A DNA stretch of 64,000 bases, from assembly GCA_963082975.1 (NCBI GenBank), contig OY720350.1:46516734-46580733 (forward strand), read 5' to 3'. Positions 6,801-62,767 of this stretch are shown here, piece after piece. The DNA is from Labia minor. Taxonomy: Eukaryota > Arthropoda > Insecta > Dermaptera > Spongiphoridae. The translations under genes were made by a program, and so were the position numbers. The notes beneath the pieces are model-generated. The model was not told the origin of the DNA. It searched no databases and saw only the letters and a program-made list of their open reading frames with translations. The stretch's first letter is position 1; every line of letters begins with the position of its first letter.

Positions 6801-9800
6801 ATATTGGTAGACGAATATATCAAAGAATTCTTTCTTCATCAAAATCTCCATTTTTTTCACATTTCACACTCAAACAAACTGAAAAAGGACTCAATGTATT
6901 TCTTATACTCATTTGGTAAAGGATTTGTTTGTTATAATTCACTCTATAAAGAATTTTGAAAATAATTGAATATTATGGAATTTTTATTTTAACATCTTCC
7001 TAAATCAGACGTGGTTTAATATACATATATTTGATATTGACTTTGTATTAATATTATTATATTTTTTAGAATTATTAATTATCCCTTCTTTTCTTTTTGA
7101 TAAATTAATATATCATATATTCCAATGGGAAAAAATAACGATTTTAAAGGTGTATGTGTGTATGTATGTATATAAATACTATTCTTTTTCTTAATTTATT
7201 ATAAACTAAAAAAAAAAAAACATTATCATCTCTATATTTATCAATGTCCCAATTCAACAACAAATTACGAAAACATAGATATTAGTAACTTTCCAGAATA
7301 TTCCTTTGCTATATTATATAACATTAAAAAAAAATAAAAATAGAAATATATAATATATATCCTTGCATTAGAAATAATTACAAATAATCTATTCTGTATT
7401 AAATATTATTTATAATGTGAAGAAATGATATAATACCTAGAAATTAGTAATTATTCTTATTTAAACTTATTGGAATGTTAAACTACTTATCACTTGGGCA
7501 CTGATCTTAAATTATTTATTTCCGAAAATGTCTTGGCCATTTATTTAGTTTTTTTTTAATATTAGTAACAAGGGAGAAATTAGTTATTTTAGAAAAAATA
7601 TAATTCAATAATATTCAATTTATATAAATATTTTTTTTAAATATAACATAAGTAGAGTTTTCATAAACAGAATAAATGTTATTCACTACTTAATTAATAA
7701 CAAAAATAAATGTAAATAAAGTACGAGTATATTTTTCGTTAAAATGTTATAAAAGTAATGTTTTTTAGATTTACTTAACTTTAATTTTATTTGCTATTAG
7801 GTGAATTACATTTCAAAAATATTTAAAATTTAATCTGTTTTTATGTTATATTTTTTATTAACATTATATTGTACGCGAAAGTCAAATCAAGGGAATTTCC
7901 CAAAAACTTGTTTTCTTTAGTCATTGATTTCTTTACATAAGATAATAAAAAGGAGAGTCCTGTAGAAGAGTTATTAACGAATTTTAGGACAGGTTTAATT
8001 TTATAGAGAGGTATCTTCTTTCGAAAGAATATAATAACCAATATTTTTTGTTTCAAATATTCTGAAATAATACTTTGTATATTTTAATTCTTCAGCAATC
8101 TCAATCATTTTAATTGTTATTACTAACTACTTGTGTTACTTTAAATTTTGTATATTTGATAATAAGCACTTATTCGTTCGATTCCAAAACTTTATATATT
8201 ATGGGGCATACTATTTGAAAAAAATCTGGAGTGTCTCCACTCGACTATCTCGCAAATTTGAATTGGATTAAATAACATATATATTATATTTAAATTTTAA
8301 ATTATAAATTAAAATTAATATATAATATTTATAATAATATTTAGTTATTAAATTTTTTATTTTTAGTCTAAAATATATATTAATTGATTAAAAAGATGAG
8401 TCAAAAAATAAATAGGTAAGAAATTAGCTGGAGTGTCTCCTCTCGACTATCTCGCAATTTGAAGTGGATTAAATATTATATATTATATTTAAATTAAATT
8501 AAATTAATTAAATTATAAATTAAAATTAATAAATAATATTTATTAAACCAGCGCATGTTTGGCTTTTTGTTGATGACACCACGTCACGTGTTGGCGCGTG
8601 AGATTTGCAGTCGTGTTAAAAAATTAATTCTGGTACTTTCAGCGATTCAATCAAGCTGAAATTCTATATATAGCAGTTTTATACAATTATTAATCATGTG
8701 AAAAATTATCAAACATATATTTTTATTTTTACGGTCACATTAGAAGAAAAAAAATCAAAACGTGGTAGGTAATGATCCTCTTCCGATTGAGCTACATTTC
8801 TCAAAAGTTGATAGAAAACTTTGAATTTTGAATAATGCCCATGTACCAAATTTCATCATTCTAACTGAAACCGTTTTTGCGTAATCTTGGTTATATACAT
8901 ACACACACAGAGACATTTTTCTCAACCTTAGTGAAAATGATTCAGGAACCTTCAAAACGTATAAAAACATCAAAATCTCAACATCGAAAATTTTCGTGAT
9001 CGCAATACTATCTCTGGCGAGATAGTATAAATTATAAATTACTATTAATTTATCATACTTACTAGAAGAATGGACCTACTTTCAATAAAATAATTTAGTT
9101 ATTTCAAAAGAGTTTTAATACTATATTTATGACAATCTGTTAATGAAGAAACAATCCCTTCAACTAATTATATTAGTACCTTTTAATTAAATATTATATT
9201 TATGAATAAATTATAACTTTCATTAACTTATACAAAGAATCAAATTCAGTAGTAGTAAGATTCTCTTAGAAATAATATATTTATTTTAATTATCCTTTGT
9301 TTAAATTCATTTTGTTTGTTATAATTCAAAGGTAAATATATGCGTGTTTTTATATTAGAGAGAGAGAGAGACATATAAATTTTCGGTTTACGTTGTATAA
9401 GTGTATTTTTATCTTCATTTCTGTATTTATTTTATTTTTAGTGGAACCTTGTCTGTGAGAAAAGTCATTGGATGGATATCAATCAGGCTATTTTCATGGC
9501 TGGAATTCTTCTAGGAACGGCCACATTTGGAATCCTCTCCGACAGGTAATATATTTAATTATATAAACCATTAGAATAATATTATTAAATCGATTCAGGC
9601 AAAATCTGCCTAGGTATAATAATATATTTATTATATTATGTATCTATCGTTGAGATATTTGATTCTCAGCTCAAACATTTGTGGCATCGGTAACCACATT
9701 CTTTCTACACTTTTTTTAGCCTGGTCCATTCAATTCCCATCTTCTTCAAATTATCTTTAATCTAAATTTATATTGTGTGGCCACGGCATTCTTGACTTAC

Positions 9801-33349: not shown

Positions 33350-35245
33350 AACTTTACTTTAAATATTATATTTACATTTCCTATTTTAAAGTGCGCCATG
33401 CTAAATAAATAACGATTATTACTTACATTTGGAGAGCTGTATTTCAATTATTTCATCGTCAGAGGATAATCAAGAATTCAAATCAACATTCAGTAGCAGG
33501 AACGAAGATTGAAACATGAAATAGAAGAAGAAAAATAACTTATTAGTTTATATTATAATCAATAAATTTAAATTAAATTAAAAATAAAATTAATAATAAA
33601 TACTGACCTCGGAGTTAATAAAGGGTTGATATTTCTCGCAGATTAAACTCGAAGAACAGCTCGTAGACTTGAATTGATGTCCATCACTCGATAAAGAAAA
33701 AAATAATTTGATTAGATATTTATATTATATACAGGAAATAAAAAAATAAGATATAAATAAATAAATAATATTAATAGGATTAATAAAGTGTATGGATTTT
33801 TAAAAATATTATAATATTCTTATTTCTGTAATATTAAAATGCTAAACTTAATAATTCCTATATAGAACCATGATTATAATAAGTTATAATACGCATTTAA
33901 TAGACATATAATAAAAATATCTTAGAAAACATCAGAAAACTAATTATGATTATTTTATTAATTTCACGAAGATTTTATTCTGTTTAATTGATATATACGA
34001 GTAGGTAATAGAAATATTATTCATTTTTCAAAAGTGTTATAATAATATGAAATTAACAAAACAATATTCATATGAGATTGGAAAGGAACGGTGTGAGCGA
34101 TAATGAGATTAGAAAGATTATATAGAATATTTAAATATTATATTTATTATTATATGAATATAAGCAATTTATATTTTTTTGATTTATAATTATATTATAT
34201 GAATTTTGAAAATAATCAGCACATCTTCCTATTTTTTAAATAAATAAGTTTTAATAAGATTAATATATATATATTGAAATTTAAAAAATATTTTAATAAT
34301 ATCTTTAAAGAAAAATAAAATTTTGTATATGATTTTTTAATGTTTAAATAATTTTACTTTGAATAAAATTTAATTAATGAGATCTGATAGAATATTTAAG
34401 ATTAATTCTTTTCAAAGATTTGAATGAAAAATTTATAAATTTATTTGGGTATATGAATAAAAAATTATAAAAATGCACTTTATAAAATTTAATTTTTATT
34501 GAAATATTTTTTTTTTTAAGTTCACTAATCTTCCTTTTAATTAATAAAAATAAATAATAAAATTACAATTAATTCTTGATTAGCGACCGATTAAGGGATG
34601 ATTTCAGTGGAGGGGCCGCTCCGGGTCTAACTCACACTCAGCAGGGAAGGGGAACTGAACTCAACTCGGCCAGCCGGCCGGCAGAAGGTAAGCCAGGCGC
34701 TGGAGGGGCTTGGAGAGGGGCGAGCGGGGAGTGCAGAGGTGAGCGCTCTACTGCAAATTATTTCAAATAAAATACATATTAAAATAAAATAAAATAAACA
34801 CATATTAATTTTTAACATTAGTGGTGTTTTAGAATACATCTTAAATCGAATCAATAAGTTTAATTCTATTAAATGAATAAGCTTAATTTTATTCAAAGAT
34901 CTTATTGGAAATTTAAAAAAAAATTATAAATATAAGAAGTTCATTAATGAAATTATCATATTTAAAAAAAAAACAAGGTGGCGTATTAATGTAAATGGTT
35001 CAATTTAAATTTAAAATTGTTTGCCAAATGTGATATAATTTTAATTTAATGTAAATATATTTCATAAAAAAGAGGGTAAATGGTAAGAATTGTTCTTATC
35101 TTGGTTGGGATACGGTATAGTATGTCTACATGTCATTTCGATGATATCGATGAGTTATGCTTTTCTTTGCTGTGTTCTTAGCAAATTACTTTAAATAATA
35201 GTATGAATTTCTATTTTAATTCTAAAAAAAATTTATTAAGTAATA
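33350..35245 (+). repeat. Segmental inverted duplication, copy E1 (~1.9 kb)
   Basis: Matches 55692-57612 in reverse complement over its whole length, with scattered substitutions and small indels. Anchors: GTGCGCCATGCTAAATAAATAA at its left end, the GC-rich island 34571-34760 in the middle, and ATACGGTATAGTATG near its right end. In E1 the candidate coding exon (minus strand, ATG at 33682-33684) is stopped after 13 codons by GTT TAA, where E2 has GTT GAA. Confidence 0.9.
34571..34760. promoter_or_regulatory. GC-rich, CpG-containing island in E1 (promoter or first exon candidate)
   Basis: 190 bp of high GC in strongly AT-rich surroundings (GGAGGGGCCGCTCCGGGTC, CCAGCCGGCCGGCAG). A + strand splice-donor-like CAGAAG/GTAAGC occurs here, changed to TTAAGC in E2. 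A GTGAGT donor on the other strand is kept in both copies (GTGAGTGAG in E2, GTGAGTTAG in E1). A 64-codon + frame is open in both copies but differs at three residues. I infer a promoter/5' exon rather than a protein; not proven. Confidence 0.45.
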
Positions 35246-35715: not shown

Positions 35716-36139
35716 GGTGACGCGTTTAAAAAATTAATTCTGGTACTTTCAGCGATTCAATCAAGCTGAAATTCTATATATGGCAGTTTTAAGCAATTAT
35801 TAATCATGTGAAAAATTATCAAACGTATATCTTTATTTTTACGGTCGCTTTAGAAGAAAAAAATTCAAAACGTTGTAGGTAATGACCCTCTTCCGGTTGA
35901 GCTACATTTCTCAAAAGTTGATAGAAAACTATGAATTTTGAATAATGCCCATGTACCAAATTTCATCAATCTAGCTCAAACCGTTTTTGCGTAATCTTGG
36001 TTACATACATACCCACACACACACATATTTTTCTCAACCTTAGTGAAAATGATTCAGGAACCTCCAAAACGTATAAAAACATCAAAATCTCAACATCGAA
36101 AATTTTCGTGATCGCAATACTATCTCTTACGAGATAGTA
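35716..36139 (-). repeat. Family-A copy A5, 5'-truncated
   Basis: Starts inside the element at AATTAATTCTGGTAC and runs through ACCCACACACACAC to the palindrome CGAAAATTTTCG and terminal hairpin ACTATCTC-TTAC-GAGATAGT (36119-36138). Confidence 0.87.
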
Positions 36140-37370
36140 ACAATACACAGTCTCTGTTCTTTTAATTAATTGCTAACTAAAATGTTAACTCAAGTAAATG
36201 ATGAAAAAAACTTGAATGAGATTGGGTCAAGTGAAAATAGCGACATATGAAGTTCGATCATACATCATTCTGTTTCTAGTCTGCAGATTATCAATGTCAA
36301 TGCACCGGTAATCTTAACGAAGATTAAAGATAAAATAGAACAATGAAATAAGAAAAAGACAATGAAAAAAATGAACAAATCCCAAAAGGTGTCAATTAAT
36401 TTTAGATAAGAACTTAATCATTTATCAGATAATTAACCTTAAATTAAAATTAAATGATATATATTTATAAATTATAATTAATTATTTATAGAAAATTAAA
36501 ATTCTTCTATTTCATTTCGTTTATTAATGTAGTTTTCATTTAATTATATAATTTCAATTTAGTTATTATTTATAAATGTGTGTGTGCGATATATATAAAT
36601 TTTAATTACATTAATTCAAACAAAATCAAATATTCACTGTGATACTGGCAAGTCAGATTTCTTAAGGAAGTATTTATTAACCTAGGAGGGGTATTTTCAC
36701 TTAGATTAGAGTAATATAATTAAATAGTACCGGGACCCCGAGCCTCGACTCGGTAATTAAGCTAAAAAAAATGATTCATTATTATTTGGTTTGGCTGGTA
36801 ATATTAATACCTGAGACACCGAGCTCTCGCTCGACCCTTTAAAAATATTAATATATAATTCTTTCATTATTTATTACAATTATTAAATGTTGCATCATTG
36901 CATCAATTTGATTAAAATGAATTGAACTGGGGTCCTCAATAATACAAACAAACAATTTTAGCTAGCATAATAAGATTAGATATTAAAAAATATATAAAAA
37001 ATTACCTGAAAATAATTAGATATTTATTTGATAAAATTATATTTTTATATTAGACAATGATAAAATGTATACCTTTTACTTTTAAAAAAGACTGCCGTTT
37101 TTTAAACTTGCTTTGACTGTTTTTTCCTCTCTCAAGGAGAGAAAAAAAATTGTTGGTTAAATTCTATCAATTTAAATATAAATTTATTTTAGATATATAC
37201 CTATCTATTAATTTAATTAATATTTTCGACTTAATTAAAGAAATTGTAAGCCAACGAGTAATCACATTCATAATTTGCGTGCCGGTATTTTTTACGCGAA
37301 GGGCTGTATCTCTTCTTTTAAGTCAGCCTCTACTACATATTCCTAATTAAACTTCACCGTGTTGTCTGAG
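36140..37370. other. Intergenic, no gene; two small GC-rich hairpins
   Basis: AT-rich. At 36730-36755 CCGAG-CCTCGA-CTCGG and at 36815-36840 a GAGCTC-rich patch stand out. They may be remnants of a structured element; nothing else recognised. Confidence 0.45.
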
Positions 37371-41365: not shown

Positions 41366-42202
41366 ATGCTCCAGGAAAGTCTAAACCAATTAAGGTCTTA
41401 GCTTGAGAAATGGAGGATAGCAGTAAACGAAGACAAATCTGCACACTTGACTTTTACTTTGAATAGACAAACCTGTCTCGGCGTAAATTTAGACAAACCC
41501 ATTCCGGTTAAAAGTACTGTAGAGTATCTCGGAATGCACCTTGACAGACACCTAACCTGGGAGATGCATATCAAGTCAAAAAAGAAACAACTGAGACTTA
41601 AACTTAACAAATTATACTGGCTGCTCCGACAAAAATCTCAACTGACGATTGACAATAAACTTCTTATCTACAAAATGATCCTGAAACCCATTTTGTGGGG
41701 AACCGCTAGCAAATCCAAGAGAGACCAAATTCAGCGGTTTCAAAACAAAATTTTTAGACTAATAGTCGGTGCTCCTTGGTATGTCCCTAACAGTCTGATT
41801 CATAGGGTCCTGGGAATAGATACAGTAGATATGGGAATTAAAAATTACAGCCTTCGCTACAAAGAGAGACTCCTTAAACACCCTAATCCCAAACCCCGAC
41901 AACTATTAGCCACTTAAGGACAATTGAGACGACTCAAAAGACTCAAACCCCATGACTTGACAAGAGACATTAATAAATAGACCCGGCGATGGTGTACTTA
42001 CAGGAATTAACCTTCCGTTTAATAATTCAGTGACATTCCTCCTATACTATTTCCACACTTCCAATGATTCACTTTCCTTAACCTCCTCTTTATTTTCCTT
42101 TGACCTCCCCTCCCCATTTATTAATCTTTGCATTATTGTAAACCATGTATTATTGCCTTCGGGCAGATGTACAAAGTTAAATGGATGTCCAATAAAAAAA
42201 AA
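41366..42202 (+). pseudogene. 5'-truncated Jockey-like non-LTR retrotransposon
   Basis: The frame 41447-41917 matches the C-terminal third of Jockey-clade reverse transcriptases: VEYLGMHLDRHLTWEMHI, LLIYKMILKPILWGTAS, IQRFQNKIFRLIVGAPWYV. It is preceded by LEKWRIAVNEDKSAHL, in frame after a stop. A 3' UTR of ~280 bp follows, ending TGGATGTCCAATAAAAAAAAA at ~42.2 kb, the expected poly-A end. 5' truncation is usual for these elements. Confidence 0.88.
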
Positions 42203-42601: not shown

Positions 42602-43014
42602 CAAATTAATTCCGGTACTTTCAGCGATTCGATCAAGCTGAAATTCTATATATATAGCAGTTTTATACAATTTTTAATTATGTGAAAAACTATCAAACAT
42701 ATATCTTTATTTTTATGGTCAGTTTAGAAGAAAAAAAATCAAAACGTGGTAGGTAATGACCCTCTTCCGGTTGAGCTACATTTCTCAAAAGTTGATAGAA
42801 AACTACGAATTTTGAATAATGCCCCTGTACCAAATTTCATTAATCTAACTTAAACCGCTTTTGCGTAATCTTGTCTACACACACACACACACACACAAAC
42901 ATTTTTCTAAACCTTAGTGAAATTGACTCAGGGACCTTCAAAACGTATAAAAACATCAAAATTTCGACATCGAAAATTTTCGTGATCGCAAGACTATTTC
43001 TGGCGAGATGAAGG
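42602..43014 (-). repeat. Family-A copy A6, 5'-truncated
   Basis: Runs from AATTAATTCCGGTAC through (CA)n at 42870-42897 to CGAAAATTTTCG and ATTTCTGGCGAGAT; the terminal hairpin has partly decayed. Truncated at nearly the same internal point as copy A5. Confidence 0.87.
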
Positions 43015-44420
43015 TATCATTATTATTTATTGAATTGTTATATAAAACTATAAATTATGTTGATATAAAATAGAAATAAATTAGTAAAAATATGTTCATC
43101 ATCATAATTGAAACATTTTAATTAATGATTAATTTCAATTTTTGGATTATTTTTTTTACGAATGACCCCAACATGGCAATGCTGATATTTAAAAATATTT
43201 TATAACTTTTATTCATTTTAGGCTTATTTATAGATAGGATAGTAAAAATATAATAAATTAAAAGCAAAATTGAAAAATATTCTTATTATTCTCAATATAC
43301 ATATAATTTATAGATTTATTTTTACCTCATTTGATGTAAATTACCCCGGTTCTTTGAATAAAGCCTTACATGGACAATTTATTATTAATTTTTTCTTTCA
43401 AATAAAGAAATATTTTTCCAAAAAATCGTCTGCAGATAAATTTGGTTGATTTTCAAATATGTATAGATATAGATATAGTTGTCATTATTAATCAGCCGGA
43501 AACTCTTTTAGAATTATTTTCTAGGTAGTTACATTGTTATATAAGAATTAATAAGTTTTCATAAGAATTTATAGAATTCTAATTTTATACGTTTTTTAAA
43601 ATTTAGATTAAAAATTATACAATAATTGTATTTAAATATAAGTATTTGTAAAATAAATAAATTAGAACAAAAAGTTGATTTTTTTATTTTATATTTATAT
43701 TCTAGATAAAAGTAAATATTAAATAACAGTAAATTGTACACTGTCTTCTCCCTACTACTTCACCCAGATATCTTATTGCGAAGAGATATTAATATTCTAT
43801 ATATTTAATATGCTACAATATTTAAATTTACACTTTAAGCAAAGAACTCAAGTAATGGTTCAGATGTTGTCGTTTGTTACATTGTGAGAAGAAAGCCTTT
43901 TGAAATATTCAAGGATTGGATTTAAGTTTTTGACAGGTCCTGATTTTAAGCGTTAAAGGATTTATTTAAGATTCAAGAGTGGAAAAGAGTACAGGATTCT
44001 CTGTCTTTTACAAGTTCGCTAGAAAAACGAGTTCATTGAAAACAACATCATACAACTGTCTCGAATTTAATTAATTTAGAAATATTTAAATTAAAAGTGC
44101 ATCTAATACATATTAATTATGATACCACATATTTTATACTTTATCCTTAATAAGAAATTAATTAACAAGACAAAAGATATATATTTGGAAGAAGTCAAGG
44201 ACTAGAAAAGATACTCCCTCTATTTCTCTCTCTCTCTCTCTCTCTCGCTATTCTGAGAAACATTTTTGACCTCATATGAAAATCGTGATGGATTTTTATA
44301 GGTACAGAAAAAAACTATTATTACTTAATTTGAAGGATCTTCTTCATGATTTTCGTGACTTTATATCCAAACACGAGTAAATTAAAATCATATAGTAATT
44401 CTTCGAGTTCTGTTCTTTTA
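43015..44420. other. Intergenic, no gene seen
   Basis: AT-rich with a (TC)n tract at 44222-44246. No coding or mobile-element signal recognised. Confidence 0.5.
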
Positions 44421-45350: not shown

Positions 45351-45969
45351 TGGAGTGTCTCCACTCGACTATCTCGCAATTTGAATTGGATTAAATAACA
45401 TAATATATTATATTTAAATTAAATTTAATTAATTATAAATTATAAATAATAAATATTAAACCAGCGCATGTTTGGTTTTTTATTGATGGGACCATGGCAC
45501 GTGTTGGCGCGTGAGATTTGCAGTGTTAAAAAATTAATTCTGGTACTTTCAGCAATTCAATCAAGCTGAAATTCTATATATAGCAGTTTTATACAATTAT
45601 TAATCATGTGAAAAATTATCAAACATATATCTTTATTTTTACGGTCACTTTAGAGGAAAAAAAATCAAAACGTTGTAGGTAATGACCCTCTTCCGGTTGA
45701 GCTACATTTCTCAAAAGTTGATAGAAAACTATGAATTTTGAATAATGCTCATGTACCAAATTGCATCATTCTAGCTCAAACCGTTTTTGCGTAATCTTGC
45801 CTACATACATACACACACACATACATACACATACACACATACACACACACACAGACATTTTTCTCAACCTTAGTGAAAATGATTCAGGAACCTTCAAAAC
45901 GTATAAAAACATCAAAATCCCAACATCGAAAATTTTCGTGATCGCAATACTATCTCTGGCGAGATAGTA
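45351..45969 (-). repeat. Family-A copy A7, essentially full length
   Basis: CTGGAGTGTCTCCACTCG start, GCATGTTTGG and CACGTGTTGGCGCGTG blocks, expanded ACAC/ACAT microsatellite at 45808-45853, CGAAAATTTTCG, and a perfect terminal hairpin ACTATCTC-TGGC-GAGATAGT (45949-45968). Confidence 0.9.
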
Positions 45970-48058
45970 AAAACAGCACTGAATTTATTATATACCGTAT
46001 AATTTTCTTAAAAATATGATTTCATTCACTTTTTACGAACTAAAATAATTCAACTCGGATAAAGTGAATTTATATGGATAAAAAAATGTTTTCTTTCAAT
46101 TCCTATTATTTTTATTTAATTTCATCTAAATATTTTTTTTTTATCATTTGTTTTTACTTATAGGAAAACTTTCATCAATACTAATAGATGAAAAATTCTA
46201 TGAAATTGAGATGTTTGAAATATACTTTTACTTTTAGAATTAAATCTAGAGTGAATTGATAAATAAGAGAGAGTGAATTTTTCATCTCTGATTTGATATG
46301 CGAATGAAAAATGTAAAAAAAAAAAAATGACTCGAAGTGAGTTGAAATGGGAGAGGGTTTTTCTTCTGTTGGCATACCTCCTAATATAGAAGAAACGCGA
46401 ATTCATTTGTGAATGTAGGAGTGTGGAAGCAATGCCCCACTCACAACCATTTTATCGTCCAATAACAGTTAGAAATTAACAAAGTGGCAAAACCTTTTAA
46501 ATTCCTAATTGAAAAGAAGAATGCAAACGAATTGTGGCTTAACACATTAAATTAATACAAAAATTATTACAGATTATTTTAATTCGAAAGAAAATATATA
46601 TTTTATTTTTTGCATTCATATTTTTCATAGAAAAATTAAAAAGAAATTATTCATTATTTTATGATATTAAAAATAAATCTGGCAAGTACGACTCTTACTA
46701 ATAAAAGCGCTGTTAGTATGCAAGATGGATATTTTTTTTTATAAAATTCCAATCAAAACTATTAATTAAATAGATAATTTTTAAAAAGTAAAACTATTCA
46801 ATAAAAAAAGAAAATTTTTTTATATGGAGAAACAATTGATGACAATTTCTCCTATTAATTAAGATGAATTTTAAATTCTGTTGATTTTTATCAATCAAAA
46901 ATTACAATAAACGGTTTATTTACAAAATTTCTCCTATTTGACCTTCTCATTGTAATAAAATGCATTTGGAAAGCCTTCTGTTTCCATTTAGGGCTTAATT
47001 TCCGTCATCATCAAAAAGTACTGATAAAATTTATTGGAAAATCGTAATAAATAACAGAAGAGAAAATGTTTAATTTATCGATAGCTGTGCATATATTAAT
47101 AAACATCAGATATTTTTAATTTAAAGTATATGGTGGGGATAATTCCATTTCATGGCTTGAAAACTTGTTACCTTTTAAGGAAACTCGAAGACTCCTCCCG
47201 CAACGGCGTCTTTCTCTTTGAAACTGTCACTTCGGCCAGGATAAATGATCATCGGCGACGGGTGAAATCGTAAAACGATATTCTTCTTCATCGTCTTCTC
47301 TGTATAGTGAAAAGTGGATTAAAGGACTGGATAGAAGATAAATCATATAAATACTTGGAATTCATTTGAGGGATGAATTGATCATAGGACAATCAATGAA
47401 ATTGATATCTATGAAAAATATCACATGTTTTATAATATATTCATGAGTATTCAATGAATAAAAGTAACGTTTTTGATGAAAATATATTGATAAATGATAA
47501 GAGGAAAAAGATATATACAAACATTATAAAGTGTCATTCAATCACGAATGTATTGAAAAGAGGAAATAAACTAATCATTTGCAAATTTATATATAAAAAA
47601 ATAATAAATAAATAAATAAAAAATTGACTTTGAGAAAATAAGTTGTCATTTGTTCTTTCATAGATGCCAATTATAATTTATGGAGAAAGCTAGAAAATGT
47701 TTACCATAAAAGACGATTTATTATACATTGTAAATTCATCTTTTTGACACTTTCTTAAATGATAGATTAAATGATAGATTAAATTCAAATATTGTAAAAA
47801 AAAATTATTTTCTTACAAGATTGTATTTCATTTTTAAATATATATAATTAATTTATAGTTAAATAATAAATTAAATTAATTCTATAAAAAAATATTGTAA
47901 TTATTTGGTTATGTCAATTAATACTCTTAAAGATTTTTGTCTAAGCATAAATTATTTTATAAACTCCAAAATTTGTATCAATCACTTTTTTTATTTTTCA
48001 AACTTTTTCAAATTAATTCTTATCATTTTTCTTATTAGAAAATATTTTTAATATAAAT
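45970..48058. other. Intergenic; mostly AT-rich
   Basis: No gene beyond the GC-richer block at 47172-47299. A poly-A tract at 46315-46327 and diverse short AT repeats. Confidence 0.45.
47172..47299 (-). other. GC-richer block, possible exon on minus strand
   Basis: Minus strand: acceptor-like CTATACAG/ before 47299, a frame of 41 codons (KEKDAVAGGVFEFP before the stop at 47175-47177), and AAG/GTAACA donor-like sequence at 47171. An alternative frame reads EDDEEEYRFTISPVADD to a TGA. The base composition is exon-like against the AT background, but no frame crosses the whole block, so a UTR or terminal exon is more likely than an internal coding exon. Confidence 0.3.
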
Positions 48059-55691: not shown

Positions 55692-57612
55692 ACTAAATTT
55701 TTTTTAGAATTAAAATAGAAATTCATACTATTATTTAACGTAATTTGCTAAGAACACAGCAAAGAAAAGCATAACTCATCGATATCTTACTATACCGTAT
55801 CCCAACCAAGATAAGAACAATTCTTACCATTTACCCTCTTTTTTATGAAATATATTTACATTAAATTAAAATTATATCGCATTCGGCAAACAATTTTAAA
55901 ATTAAATTGAACCATTTAAATTAATACGCCACCTCCTTGTTTTTTTTTTTTTTTAAATATGATAATTTCATTAATGAACTTCTTACTGATATATTTATAA
56001 TTTTTTTTTAAATTTCCAATAAGATCTTTGAATAAAATTAAGCTTATTGATTTAATAGAATTAATAGAATTATACTTATTGATTCGATTTAAGATGTATT
56101 CTAAAAGACCACTAATTTTAAAAATTAATATTTGTTTATTTTATTTTATTTTAATATGTATTTTATTTGAAATAATTTGAAGTAGAGCGCTCACCTCTGC
56201 ACTCCCCGCTCGCCCCTCTCCAAGCCCCTCCAGCGCCTGGCTTAACTTCTGCCGGCCGGCTGGCCGAGTTCAGTTCAGTTCCCCTTCCCTGCTGAGTGTG
56301 AGTGAGACCCGGAACGGCCCCTCCACTGAAATCATCCCTTAATCGGTCGCTAATCAAGAATTAATTGTAATTTTATTATTTATTTTTATTAATTAAAAGG
56401 AAGATTAGTGAACTTAAAAAAAAAATATTTCAATAAAAATTAAATTTTATAAAGTGCATTTTTATAATTTTTTATTCATATACCCAAATAAATTTATTAA
56501 TTTTTCATTCAAATCTTTGAAAAGAATTAATCTTAAATATTCTATCAGATCTCATTAATTAAATTTTATTCAAAGTAAAATTATTTAAACATTAAAAAAT
56601 CATATACAAAATTTTATTTTTCTTTAAAGATATTATTAAAATATTTTTTAAATTTCAATATATATATATTAATCCTATTAAAACTTATTTATTTAAAAAA
56701 TAGGAAGATGTGCTGATTATTTTCAAAATTCATATAATATAATTATAAATCAAAAAAATATAAATTGCTTATATTCATATAATAATAAATATAATATTTA
56801 AATATTCTATATAATCTTTCTAATCTCATTATCGCTCACACCGTTCCTTTCAAATCTCATATGAATATTGTTTTGTCAATTTCATATTATTATAACACTT
56901 TTGAAAAATGAATAATATTTCTATTACCTACTCGTATATATCAATGAAACAGAATAAAATCTTCGTGAAATTAATAATATAATCATAATTAGTTTTCTGA
57001 TGTTTTCTAAGATATTTTTATTATATGTCTATTAAATGCGTATTATAACTTATTATAATCATGGTTCTATATAGGATGTAAAATAATTTTAGTATTTTAA
57101 TATTACAGAGAAATAAGAATATTATAATATTTTTAAAAATCCATACACTTTATTAATCCTATTAATATTATTTATTTATTTATATCTTATTTTTTTATTT
57201 CCTGTATATAATATAAATATCTAATCTTAATTATTTTTTTCTTTATCAAGGCGAGAGTGATGGACATCAATTCAAGTCTACGAGCTGTTCTTCGAGTTGA
57301 ATCTGCGAGAAATCTCAACCCTTTATTAACTCCGAGGTCAGTATTTTATTATTAATTTTATTTTTAATTCAATTTAAATTTATTGATTATAAACTAATAA
57401 GTTATTTTTCTTCTTATATTTCATGTTTCAATCTTTGTTCCTGCTACTGAATGTTGATTTGAATTTTTGATTATCTTCTCCATCCTTGATGACGATGAAA
57501 TGATTGAAATACAGCTCTCCAAATGTAAGTAATAATCGTTATTTATTTAGCATGGCGCACTTTAAAATAGGAAATGTAAATATAATATTTAAAGTAAAGT
57601 TTAATAAAGTGG
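55692..57612 (-). repeat. Segmental inverted duplication, copy E2 (~1.9 kb)
   Basis: Reverse complement of E1 (33350-35245). The GC-rich island is at 56180-56350, the candidate exon at 57251-57336 and the GTGCGCCATGCTAAATAAATAA anchor (inverse) at ~57548-57570. The copies are separated by about 20.4 kb and face opposite ways. Similarity ends close to 55690 (transposon remnant) and ~57612. Confidence 0.9.
57251..57336 (+). CDS. Candidate first coding exon in E2
   Basis: TTTCTTTATCAAG/ acceptor, ATG at 57260, then MDINSSLRAVLRVESARNLN followed by PLLTP, and donor CCGAG/GTCAGT; ends in phase 2. 77 coding nt. The GC-rich island ~0.9 kb upstream has a GTGAGT donor that could form a 5' UTR exon. 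LRVxVESARNL-like text occurs at the start of some C2 domains, but the match is too short to name a family. A short downstream frame before CAAAT/GTAAGT (57482-57530, ILDDDEMIEIQLSK) may be the next exon, although an acceptor and phase were not confirmed. The E1 counterpart has a stop, so at most one copy is functional. Confidence 0.35.
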
Positions 57613-59287: not shown

Positions 59288-59948
59288 TTTAAATGATTTT
59301 CAAAAAGTGAGTGAGATTTATATCCCTGACGTAGGGTAACTTTGCATTATCCATTGATCAATTAATATTATGATTTATTTAATAGCACTGTCGGATTTAT
59401 CTCCAATTAAATTCCTGAATATTACAAAAATAGATAAATAACTATTTCCAGTTAATCCTTTATATTTAGAGAAAATAAATAATAAATAATTATATTTCAA
59501 TTCAAAATACAAATAAATACAATAATAGCAATTTCATAAAGGCAATATAATTTTACCACAATAAGTATAAACTTTTATCGCCTACTCTTGAATTTACTTG
59601 ATATTAAATAAAATAATATCGTTAACTTTCACCACAAAATAAATTTTGTTTAATGGTTCAATTATGAAATAAAATAATTAAAAAAGTTAACAGCGGCTTA
59701 TTGTGTTATCTTAATTAAATACAAACATTAACCATTTATTATCTATTGGGATTCCAAATTTGTTTTTAAACATAAAAACAAATTTAAATTTCTTTAATTA
59801 TTAATATTAAATAAATTATAATTTCTTAGGTTTTGTTTTATAAAAGACATTTGGTTTTGAATATATTAAATTTTATATTTAATTTGCATCTAATAGAATA
59901 TAATAAATAAGTTCAATATTTAACTTAAGCTTATTTTAATATAATATG
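59288..59948. other. Intergenic, AT-rich, no gene seen
   Basis: Nothing recognised up to the TATG target site of the LTR element at 59945-59948. Confidence 0.5.
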
Positions 59949-60452
59949 TGTAGGGAATTTCGTTGTCTAGGGGTTGTTTAGCAAAAAATATCTGTTTTGT
60001 TTAAATGGTTGCAAAAATATCGTTTTATTGAATGAATATGAACAAGATAAAAATACAGTGTAAAGATAAATGAAATCGTAACTTCTTCGTTTCTTGAATA
60101 CTTCTTGCGATGTACAAAAGACTGAATAAACTCTTAACTGTAAACTGACTGAAATCTGACTATATACTAAACTCGAATCGTGCCGGTGTCCCTTTTAAAA
60201 GGAAGTCCAAACAGCTGGAACTCGGTTGCTATTGGTCGGTGGCGTGGAGTGGGAGAATGGCGGCGACGGTGATGGTAGCTCATGGTGGGGAGGCGGCGAC
60301 GGCGTCTGGGGCGCTCGCTGCTTGGAGCGGCGTTGAGAGGAAGCACTAACTCCGATGATATTGTGGTTGAGAATGGCCGACATCGAGGCAGTAAGATGCG
60401 CCAGGCTTTTGATGATTCGGACGGTGATGAGCCAAAAGGCTCCATTCCCACA
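59949..60452 (-). repeat. Downstream (3') LTR
   Basis: TG...CA-bounded 504-bp LTR, the GC-rich half nearest the ORF. The internal ORF reads on into it and ends at 60167 inside the LTR. Confidence 0.92.
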
Positions 60453-61861
60453 TTCGGCCGTCCTGCGATGTATTCGACCTCGAATACGTTAATCTTCTTT
60501 TCCTTATCTCTCCACTTCGCCTTCGTTTTTCGATATTTATCGATTTTTTTCTTCACGTAAAATAGTATTTGTGATTTGGATAAATCATTTATGCCTGTTT
60601 CTAAATTTAAATCCACATTAAAATCTTCATTTTCTTTATTTAAAACACTATCTTCAGTTTCAACTTTACTTGCAGTTTGTGTTTTATCATTATCGTTAGA
60701 ACTTTCTTCTTTAATTTCGTCTAATTTTAAAAGGACATTTGCTAAATTTAATTTTGCTTCTTTATTTCCTTCATTTGCTTGTTTTTCATAAATCACTTTT
60801 GCCAATTTTAAAACTTTCCAGGCGAATTTTAAATTAGTAACGTCATCTTCTTCACTGTCTTTCTCACCATCTTCACTTTCAGGCATTGTTTCATCAAGAT
60901 AAAAAATTTTATCATTGGGATCAATCTCTTCTTCACGAATTGTTTTATTTCGATCTTCTGAAGTGCTTTCATCCTTATCAACTTCCATTGATTCATCGTC
61001 ATTTACTTTATCCTCTTCATTAACTTCACTTTCGGTCTTTTTTTCATTATCAGTCGTTAGAGATTCTTTATCTTCATTCTTTTCTTCTTTGACTTCCTGT
61101 TTTTCAGTCTCTCCTTTTTTATTAGATTCTTTCTTTTCAGTCTCTTCTTTTTTATCAGATTCTTTCTTATCAGTCCCTTCTATTTTCTCCGATTCTTTCT
61201 TTTGAGTTTTTTCTTTTTTATTAGATTCTTTCTTTTCAGTCTCTTCTTTTTTATCAGATTCTTTCTTATCAGTCTCTTCTATTTTCTCCGATTCTTTCTT
61301 TTGAGTTTTTTCTTTTTTATTAGATTCTTTCTTTTCAGTCTCTTCTTTTTTCTTAGATTCTTTCTTTTCAGTCTCTTCTTTTTTATTAGATTCTTTCTTT
61401 TCAGTCTCTTCTTTTTTATCAGATTCTTTCTTTCCAGTCTCTTCTTTTTTATCAGATTCTTTCTTATCAGTCTCTTCTTTTTTATTAGATTCTTTCTTTT
61501 CAGTCTCTTCTTTCTTATCAGTCTCTTCTTTTTCTTCTTCTTCATCATCTTCGTCCAGTGTACATAACCAAGATAGAATGTTACCTCTAATTAGTTCGTC
61601 GCTGTCTTGCTCAGGAAGATTGAGTATATTAGATGTTCGACGTAGTTGCTTACTGGTAAGTTTTTCCTTTAATTCTTCATTTTTCTTTTCGTATTCCTCA
61701 GAACCTTCAACAAAGTTGAACCCTTCAAAGTTGAGTAGGGTTTTTCTACTGAGGCGGCAAGTTGCGTCACCCGTTATTATCGTTTTTAATCCTTTCAATT
61801 CATATGGTTTGGCCTCAATGATGTTTTTTGCGATTTTTGGAAAAAAAAACAAATTCAACAT
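60167..61861 (-). CDS. DEK-like / NASP-like fusion ORF inside the LTR element
   Basis: 564 codons, ATG at 61861. Residues ~1-102 resemble the conserved N-terminal region of DEK, a chromatin protein and H3.3 chaperone: LLNFEGFNFVEGSEEYEKK, then a SAP-like KLTSKQLRRTSNILNLPE and ELIRGNILSWL. Residues ~103-260 are a Glu/Lys 11-residue repeat (KKEETEKKESN type), followed by an acidic part. Residues ~340-390 match a TPR segment of NASP, the H3-H4 chaperone: DVTNLKFAWKVLKLAKVIYE then EAKLNLANVLLKLDEI. Residues ~391-470 are unplaced (up to EVEYIAGRPN); 471-564 are translated LTR. DEK and NASP identities are from remembered family patterns; NASP is the stronger. No introns, so probably captured from spliced RNA. 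Whether it is translated is unknown. Confidence 0.75.
   Translation of the reverse strand: MLNLFFFPKIAKNIIEAKPYELKGLKTIITGDATCRLSRKTLLNFEGFNFVEGSEEYEKKNEELKEKLTSKQLRRTSNILNLPEQDSDELIRGNILSWLCTLDEDDEEEEKEETDKKEETEKKESNKKEETDKKESDKKEETGKKESDKKEETEKKESNKKEETEKKESKKKEETEKKESNKKEKTQKKESEKIEETDKKESDKKEETEKKESNKKEKTQKKESEKIEGTDKKESDKKEETEKKESNKKGETEKQEVKEEKNEDKESLTTDNEKKTESEVNEEDKVNDDESMEVDKDESTSEDRNKTIREEEIDPNDKIFYLDETMPESEDGEKDSEEDDVTNLKFAWKVLKLAKVIYEKQANEGNKEAKLNLANVLLKLDEIKEESSNDNDKTQTASKVETEDSVLNKENEDFNVDLNLETGINDLSKSQILFYVKKKIDKYRKTKAKWRDKEKKINVFEVEYIAGRPNVGMEPFGSSPSESSKAWRILLPRCRPFSTTISSELVLPLNAAPSSERPRRRRRLPTMSYHHRRRHSPTPRHRPIATEFQLFGLPFKRDTGTIRV
61100..61545 (-). repeat. 33-bp minisatellite coding for the Glu/Lys repeat
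   Basis: About 13 units of 33 bp (11 codons) with a higher-order ~99-bp block repeated (…DKKESDKKEETEKKESN… then KKEKTQKKESEKIE, twice). The + strand shows it as TTCTTTCTTTTCAGTCTCT units. It forms the junction between the DEK-like and NASP-like parts. Confidence 0.88.
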
Positions 61862-61894
61862 CTTAATATATTTTTATTTCTTTAATCTTTACTG

Positions 61895-62165
61895 TATTAT
61901 ATCTTGTATTTTCTTTCTTGATGATTATTCACAAAAAAAAATCTTGAAAGTGAATAAGTTTTCAATCTTAAATCTTGAATCTTTTCCTTGACAATTATTC
62001 ACAAAAATCTTGAGAGTAAATAAATCTTCAATCTTGAATCTTGTATCGTTTTCGTAAGAATTATTCACAAAAATCTTGAAAGTGAATAAGACTTGAATCT
62101 TGAATCTTGTATCTTTTCTTGAAGATTATTCACATAAAATCTTGAGAGTGAACAAGTCTAGGAAT
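61895..62165 (-). repeat. Tandem ~68-bp repeats in the leader of the LTR element
   Basis: ATTATTCACA occurs at ~61925, 61995, 62060 and 62127, each followed by AAAATCTTGAGAGTG/AAAGTG and TCTTGAATCTTG, giving four diverged units between the presumed primer-binding site and the ORF start. Confidence 0.82.
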
Positions 62166-62222
62166 CTTCTTTTGCCCGAACGATAAACGAGTTGTTTTCA
62201 ATCACGGACTGAGCCTCCAATT

Positions 62223-62726
62223 TGTAGGGAATTTCGTTGTCTAGGGGTTGTTTAGCAAAAAATATCTGTTTTGTTTAAATGGTTGCAAAAATATCGTTTT
62301 ATTGAATGAATATGAACAAGATAAAAATACAGTGTAAAGATAAATGAAATCGTAACTTCTTCGTTTCTTGAATACTTCTTGCGATGTACAAAAGACTGAA
62401 TAAACTCTTAACTGTAAACTGACTGAAATCTGACTATATACTAAACTCGAATCGTGCCGGTGTCCCTTTTAAAAGGAAGTCCAAACAGCTGGAACTCGGT
62501 TGCTATTGGTCGGTGGCGTGGAGTGGGAGAATGGCGGCGACGGTGATGGTAGCTCATGGTGGGGAGGCGGCGACGGCGTCTGGGGCGCTCGCTGCTTGGA
62601 GCGGCGTTGAGAGGAAGCACTAACTCCGATGATATTGTGGTTGAGAATGGCCGACATCGAGGCAGTAAGATGCGCCAGGCTTTTGATGATTCGGACGGTG
62701 ATGAGCCAAAAGGCTCCATTCCCACA
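62223..62726 (-). repeat. Upstream (5') LTR
   Basis: Second LTR copy, no difference from the other seen by eye, implying very recent insertion. It should contain the promoter for the minus-strand transcript; a CpG-rich stretch lies at 62510-62620. Confidence 0.92.
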
Positions 62727-62767
62727 TATGTAATAAACTTAAAAAATATACTATTTTATTATTTGAA

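Follow-up and report, generated by a model that had tools for sequence, protein, structure and literature searches.

A probable non-autonomous Ty3/gypsy element joining a DEK-like Gag domain to fragments of host NASP and ADD genes

The stretch of Labia minor DNA analyzed here (64,000 nucleotides, hereafter the window) lies in contig C9 of a 604-Mb genome and contains a 2.78-kb element with long terminal repeats (LTRs) at positions 59949-62727. By its sequence, the element is a recent, non-autonomous member of the Ty3/gypsy lineage. We consider it probable that this member of a lineage with a DEK-type domain in Gag has traded pol for fragments of two host genes, NASP and an ATRX-type gene with an ADD domain, that it would be moved in trans by an intact partner, and that its protein would work on chromatin, the last point being the least certain. 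An initial annotation of the window had described a young LTR element with identical LTRs and a TATG duplication, holding a 564-codon open reading frame (ORF) with DEK-type and NASP-type sequence instead of gag-pol. The LTRs indeed show 0 differences, and searches against the PDB together with the match to the host NASP gene confirm the composition of the ORF. Beyond that annotation, we found a third source gene (the ATRX-type ADD gene), the loss of pol and Gag by way of an intermediate that survives in the genome, and repeated swaps in sister families.

Element architecture

The two LTRs form identical stretches of 505 bp that include one ambiguous T, and their TG..CA ends define an LTR of 504 bp. 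A primer-binding-site-like stretch that begins with TGG at +3 from the LTR sits 3 nt inside the 5' LTR when the element is read on the minus strand, which is therefore taken as the coding sense (Table 1). Nothing in the ORF scored above cut-off in a Pfam scan, SHNi-TPR and DEK_C included; the homology of its parts is therefore argued from PDB sequence searches, a profile, and host genes. Neither the ORF, Pfam, nor alignment gave a reverse transcriptase (RT) or integrase (IN) belonging to the window copy, which has also lost Gag, and the absence of its own RT and IN makes the element non-autonomous. Repeats of 33 bp (11 K/E-rich residues) occupy window positions 60978-61599 and differ in number among copies. 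The ~25 YVKKKIDKYRKTKAKWRDK-like residues at window 60505-60575 occur in two element families, and no source was found for them.

Table 1. Parts of the window element and their coordinates in the window
Feature	Position	Strand	Basis or remark
5' LTR in coding sense	62223..62727	-	Identical over 505 bp; TG..CA ends place it at 62223-62726
3' LTR in coding sense, encodes last ~95 codons of ORF	59949..60453	-	LTR comparison
Target-site duplication TATG, left	59945..59948	.	Read from sequence
Target-site duplication TATG, right	62727..62730	.	Read from sequence; first T overlaps ambiguous LTR base
Primer-binding-site-like TGGAGGCTCAGTCCGTGA	62202..62219	-	3 nt after coding-sense 5' LTR
Leader, 361 bp, with 66-bp tandem repeats	61862..62222	-	97% identical to leader of autonomous partner
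ORF, 564 codons	60167..61861	-	Second copy L001 encodes 100% identical protein
DEK-like pseudo-SAP/SAP-type domain, residues 1-102	61556..61861	-	Common to Gag of autonomous partner
Acidic tract after DEK domain	61506..61555	-	Continuous match with autonomous element ends here (element 1-1222 = L039 169-1367)
NASP-derived segment with 33-bp K/E repeats	60713..61387	-	Host NASP gene L030; weaker repeat matches reach ~61555
NASP TPR fragment, residues ~330-384	60710..60874	-	PDB search and host NASP match
Segment of host ATRX-type ADD gene	60617..60723	-	94.4% over 107 bp; overlaps NASP match by ~11 bp
More ADD-like residues by eye, then ~25 residues without assigned origin	60505..60616	-	Sequence comparison
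3' tail common to autonomous partner, after partner's integrase stop	60454..60504	-	Alignment

Origin of the parts

The DEK-like domain: Residues 1-102 of the ORF match a PDB chain of DEK at E=3e-4, and three DEK chains are their only PDB matches better than E=0.2. A profile built from eight Gag domains, three from the window family and five from other families, matches DEK at E=2e-14 over the domain (entries 2jx3, 9l1x, and 8kcy), the first non-DEK match standing at 0.13. The DEK-like front proposed initially is thus a true homolog, although no Pfam family scores above cut-off in the ORF. It has the pseudo-SAP/SAP domain that marks the DEK family; the C-terminal DEK_C domain (PF08766) has no match in the ORF. 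Other Gag families were sampled at eight loci, using their front parts only and scoring the domain by tblastn. Six of the eight carry it, at E values of 1e-20 to 3e-7 in L043, L045, L044, L046, and L042, and as a partial match (E=6e-6) in L048; L042 and L046 are mutually close, so that five other Gag families are represented. The domain is therefore kept in six Gag families including that of the window, at 29-42% identity to the window domain. The intron-containing host DEK gene (C1:104.77 Mb) is 33% identical to the DEK-like part over 55 residues. A closer host relative was sought only around the DEK_C loci, three of which scored above cut-off; in the regions around all three, only the canonical DEK gene aligned, the genome not having been searched with residues 1-102 alone; a closer DEK paralog lacking DEK_C may thus exist. 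Its presence in autonomous gag-pol copies and in five other Gag families, together with the low (33%) identity to host DEK, suggests an old component of Gag that came with the element lineage. Among the sampled loci without it, the Ty3/gypsy-type Gag frame of L047 (C1:99325800-99327500) opens with a canonical SAP domain (PF02037, above cut-off) instead of a DEK-like one; frames of this type, 1375 codons long, occur at three places in the Gag/protease search described below.

The autonomous partner: Relatives were searched in the genome with the Gag/protease piece of the long forms. Six places have frames of 1398-1399 codons, and our description of this autonomous partner comes from two of them (L039 and L040). 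Both have identical LTRs of 480 bp and a single frame that runs from the DEK-like domain and an acidic tract through Gag, protease (PR), RT, and RNase H (RH) to IN; neither frame contains NASP, and no env was seen. Separate pieces of L039 match the Pfam families gag, RVT_1, RNase H, and integrase, and the order of parts in the frame, PR-RT-RH-IN, is that of Ty3/gypsy elements. The partner's LTR is 91% identical to that of the window element. Two parts of the window element align to the partner: positions 1-1222, at 92.8%, and the part that starts at 2224 and runs to the end, at 91.2%. Longer relatives of the window element encode the DEK-like domain, an acidic tract, Gag with CCHC knuckles, an aspartic protease, K/E repeats, NASP, ADD, and the LTR tail. 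One of these Gag-keeping forms, L010, stops matching the partner after L039 position 2630 and matches it again from 5172, which identifies RT-RH-IN as the replaced part. In the window form, Gag and protease are gone too, the acidic tract of the DEK part running into the K/E repeats of NASP, and its losses match an intermediate still present in the genome.

The NASP segment: A 70-residue piece around residues 325-393 matches NASP (E=2e-6) in the PDB search, as well as a chain named TPR-like superfamily protein (E=3.5e-4). One SHNi-TPR (PF10516) locus was found in the genome, a single-frame NASP gene of 701 residues on contig C1. Aligned to this gene, the captured DNA is 84.5% identical in the window copy (710 bp) and 89.4% identical in a long form (606 bp). 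Judged by these alignments, the segment is a true and recent capture from the host gene. It comprises the acidic/KE region and about one TPR, the alignment ending inside the TPR downstream of the acidic region. The SHNi-TPR motif with four TPRs is found neither in the window ORF nor in two long forms, and PF10516 has no Pfam match in the latter. The NASP TPR of the initial annotation therefore keeps its descent but falls short of the SHNi-TPR family. In the part of PMC9122598 available to us, binding of H3-H4 is placed in the TPR domain of NASP, the acidic region being dispensable for it, and a cited report finds the acidic region necessary for H1 binding. Since most of the TPR domain is absent and the acidic region is dispensable, a working H3-H4 chaperone derived from this fragment is unlikely, and the H3-chaperone reading offered at first is weak for the NASP part. 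A nuclear-receptor-like frame whose best PDB matches are ROR adjoins the host NASP gene, as befits an animal host, receptors of this kind being animal proteins.

Two origins suggested by the initial annotation did not survive these comparisons. The first was that DEK and NASP had both been taken from host genes by the window element. Both parts are truly homologous to those genes, yet the DEK part precedes Gag not only in the autonomous partner but also in further Gag families, and its 33% identity to host DEK stands against 84-89% nucleotide identity for NASP; a double capture is thus very improbable, and of the two only NASP is a recent acquisition. The second was the capture of a gene already fused in the host, which would suit one continuous ORF but meets intermediates that hold Gag and protease between DEK and NASP, and host NASP and ADD genes that lie on different contigs, C1 and C2; we give it practically no weight. 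As for the intron-containing parent genes that had been anticipated, host DEK has introns but only the low identity given above, and host NASP is a single frame.

The ADD segment: The residues that follow NASP match a host frame at C2:84.13 Mb, whose start encodes an ADD domain together with an upstream exon. Compared with ATRX in the PDB search, one of the two ADD exons gave E=0.005 and the other 9e-18; the latter also matches PF17981 above cut-off, and the second ADD exon by itself matched no Pfam family. ATF7IP, which we had first suspected from what we took to be a SUMO-binding-like motif, was rejected as the identity of this gene: the only fn3_4 locus found lies elsewhere, and the upstream exons match the ADD domain of ATRX. 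The short overlap of the NASP and ADD matches in the element would fit a switch at short homology. Since fragments of NASP and of the ADD gene, which sit on separate host contigs, lie within it, the element qualifies as host-gene transducing.

Copies and age

Copy numbers come from protein searches, and the counts are lower bounds. In the ORF search of the genome, in which 77 of 4503 first-look candidates were scored, we recovered two identical proteins, encoded by the window copy and by a copy on C4, along with many relatives that are 95-98% identical. At least 75 loci, the other copies that the initial annotation had wanted counted, carry the post-NASP segment at 96-100% identity. This figure is not an insertion count, as some loci are tandem arrays or neighbors (four, for example, at C5:65.62 Mb). 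Frames of at least 484 codons are found at 70 of the 75, including 14 of at least 880 codons, and the other five have 195-457 codons. Most loci, 55 of the 75, have frames of 500-699 codons, which makes the Gag-less form the most frequent. LTR pairs were examined at 31 loci (L002 being the window copy again, and L039 and L040 the partner), 26 of which gave full pairs, L011, L012, L015, L016, and L028 being left out. No substitution separates the LTRs in 24 of the 26 pairs, and L013 and L018 have one each. The target duplication is uncertain in many other copies owing to AT-rich flanks. The element family has spread recently across the genome. Tandem arrays with one LTR between units were seen at L017 (C5:65612500-65622400) and L011 (C2:88329500-88339499), a likely sign of LTR recombination or of concatemer insertion.

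Recurrence in sister families

Further families were picked by eye from the Gag/protease search list, and a capture rate cannot be read from them. The first, L053 (front part L043), has a single 739-codon frame composed of DEK-Gag-CCHC, a shortened protease, the start of RT, an acidic segment, and an integrase tail that is 61% identical to the partner's over 96 residues. Exons of a host gene at C1:79.175 Mb, adjoining an RRM-coding stretch, match this acidic segment at 92-99% identity. One host intron has been removed exactly at its GT...AG borders, from which it follows that spliced RNA was captured; an earlier exon border is not exactly kept. The second, L054 (front part L044), has a 915-codon frame; the search for it gave seven places, one of which (C1:117.80 Mb) is host-exon-like. 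In the element, DEK-Gag-PR is followed by a 241-residue acidic segment, 98.6% identical to that host-type frame over 732 bp, and by an integrase tail with 48% identity to the partner's over 64 residues. In both families, the reading frame continues from the upstream Gag part through the insert into the downstream integrase tail. Locus L061 (C1:117797900-117800100) is a host-type, highly acidic frame of 472 codons that is nearly identical to the L054 insert.

A third group (L049, L050, and L052) has a Gag 37-40% identical to that of the window family and carries NASP and ADD-gene stretches different from those in the window element; the front part of L049, L042, has the DEK domain. This group raises the possibility that a NASP/ADD tail was passed among Gag families by recombination between elements, instead of being captured separately. 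The presence of NASP and ADD pieces in all three would be explained in this way, but the pieces cover other parts of the genes, and L050 has an ADD match of 421 bp with no counterpart in the window element. For L053 and L054, which have different source genes, the idea does not apply, and we regard it as somewhat unlikely. The four captured segments that were measured are acidic, with a D+E fraction of 0.32-0.48 and a net charge of -31 to -57; among the sources, NASP and the ADD gene are those shown to be chromatin genes. L055 keeps the RT start and the integrase tail with only a short insert between them, to which no origin was assigned. In L056 (C9:645500-647400), pieces resembling RNase H and integrase are joined in a frame that, by eye, lacks some parts; it looks like a rearranged gag-pol relative.

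Proposed mechanism and its main competitor

We propose that the host fragments were gained when RT switched between element RNA and co-packaged host mRNAs, and that such switches would occur at GA-rich, acid-coding stretches. In a derivative that still exists, a NASP fragment joined to an ADD fragment stands in place of RT-RH-IN, and the window form is without Gag and protease as well. Copies of the window type would then be moved in trans by proteins of the autonomous copies, which we infer from the LTRs, leader, and 3' tail shared with an intact partner and from the prevalence of the Gag-less form. Less surely, the DEK-type domain may bind nucleosomes or linker DNA, and the captured acidic segments may lengthen the acidic tail beside it and contact linker histone or chromatin.

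The part of PMC12263440 available to us provides the nucleosome- and DNA-contact residues of DEK used to assess this putative activity. In the Gag domains, 44% of the cells at contact positions are basic, compared with 30% at the remaining basic positions of DEK and 10% at all others, and positions 107 and 124 (DEK numbering) are basic in all eight domains. Within the limits of this residue list, the pattern suggests DNA binding by the DEK domain of Gag. Comparison of the DEK domain between the window and autonomous elements gave a nonsynonymous rate (dN) of 0.053 and a synonymous rate (dS) of 0.196 (ratio 0.27), and purifying selection on the domain is plausible in part of the tree.

Several observations weigh against our proposal. 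The nine nucleosome-contact positions are basic at only five in the window domain and at three to five across the eight Gag domains, compared with seven in host DEK, and position 116 (DEK numbering) is acidic in seven of the eight, again by the residues given in the available part of that source. The DEK domain of L039 compared with L011 gave dN 0.063 and dS 0.048 (ratio ~1.3; 14 nonsynonymous and 3 synonymous differences). No DEK domain was found in L041, a relative of L042, or in the NASP-bearing L050 and L052. RNA capture is demonstrated for L053 and not for the window family, because the host NASP gene consists of one frame and the ADD piece falls within one exon, so that the captured stretches span no host intron. 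By eye, the window element has no clear polypurine tract. Finally, the NASP segment differs from the host gene by dN 0.066 and dS 0.091 in the window (17.0 nonsynonymous and 5.0 synonymous differences; ratio ~0.7), by ratios of 0.47-0.93 in L001-L027, and, on 62 codons, by 1.8 in L050 and 0.87 in L052 (L028 and L049 were left out of the alignment); selection on the NASP segment is therefore not shown.

These ratios, together with the few differences between copies, lead to the main competitor, in which the origin is the same but the NASP and ADD segments are without function, as may be the ORF in its entirety. The youth of the copies, and the ease with which low-complexity inserts are accommodated, would account for the open frames. 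The near absence of substitutions between paired LTRs leaves little time for decay, and open frames prove little at so young an age. The LTR-coded tail of the ORF varies between LTR variants (L011, L015, and L016, for example), the ORF is broken into two frames in L012 and L014, and a few other relatives hold stops. Set against passive cargo are the two further families with other host sources and inserts in frame at both ends, the strong acidity of all four measured segments, and the persistence of the DEK domain across six Gag families. We judge passive cargo a serious contender, somewhat short of an even chance.

A bolder extension of our proposal, which we think doubtful, is that the lineage has a habit of giving up its polymerase genes in exchange for acidic stretches of host mRNA (from NASP, the ATRX-type ADD gene, the RRM gene, and an anonymous acidic exon), and that the resulting DEK-acidic proteins, by acting on nucleosomes, linker DNA, or linker histone, open or choose chromatin for the element or weaken its silencing. 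If so, gene capture would be an adaptive strategy in an arms race and no accident.

Relation to known elements

Chromoviruses are Ty3/gypsy elements with a chromodomain at the integrase end. The window lineage likewise carries a host-type chromatin domain, but of the DEK/SAP type and at the front of Gag, which would be a second way for Ty3/gypsy elements to carry a chromatin-binding domain. TR-GAG elements are non-autonomous LTR elements that keep Gag without RT and integrase. The long forms resemble them in this respect but have a captured host segment in place of pol, and the window copy, having no Gag, is not of this type. In acute transforming retroviruses, a cellular sequence fused to Gag replaces pol, and a helper is needed. 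Replacement of pol by a Gag-fused cellular sequence and, presumably, dependence on a helper are shared, whereas the window element belongs to an endogenous Ty3/gypsy lineage with low-complexity acidic fragments, and its partner lacks a visible env and resides in the genome.

Known captures of host genes by LTR elements are mostly single cases, and they come chiefly from plants and transforming retroviruses. Here, one animal-type genome holds a whole series: the autonomous partner, a Gag-keeping intermediate, an end form without enzymes or Gag, and the host source genes. Sister families repeat the swap with other genes, acidity being the shared property. With such a series, one can test whether selection for a role in chromatin underlies these captures or whether template switching at acid-coding repeats biases them. 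As far as the available part of PMC13317346 describes it, the closest comparison is maize Bs1, a host-gene-transducing LTR element with a hybrid ORF of several host gene fragments. By comparison, the window element lies in an animal-type genome beside its autonomous partner and intermediates, and its lineage has an old DEK domain in Gag, acidic fragments, sources in two chromatin genes, and at least two sister families that behave alike. DEK itself, in the accessible part of PMC12263440, also has a pseudo-SAP/SAP domain followed by an acidic tract, whereas the window protein is without the C-terminal domain and has lost several DNA-contact residues. The element type of PMC12440569 is a different one, since the part available to us gives it 3-bp duplications and CG ends. 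Our literature search found no paper joining retrotransposon, DEK, NASP, and gag, an absence claimed only for the literature searched, and a search on SAP domain, Gag, Ty3, and retrotransposon found only a paper on the Moloney integrase.

Other features of the window

Two long inverted repeats at window positions 33856-35122 and 55788-57076 are 94-99% complementary, lie ~21 kb apart, and are probably two copies of another mobile element. A dispersed repeat family occupies window positions 8665-9031, 35775-36143, 42649-43017, and 45575-45973, with further copies in the other orientation. A 171-residue frame at window 41402-41917 presumably resembles the end of a LINE-type reverse transcriptase ORF.

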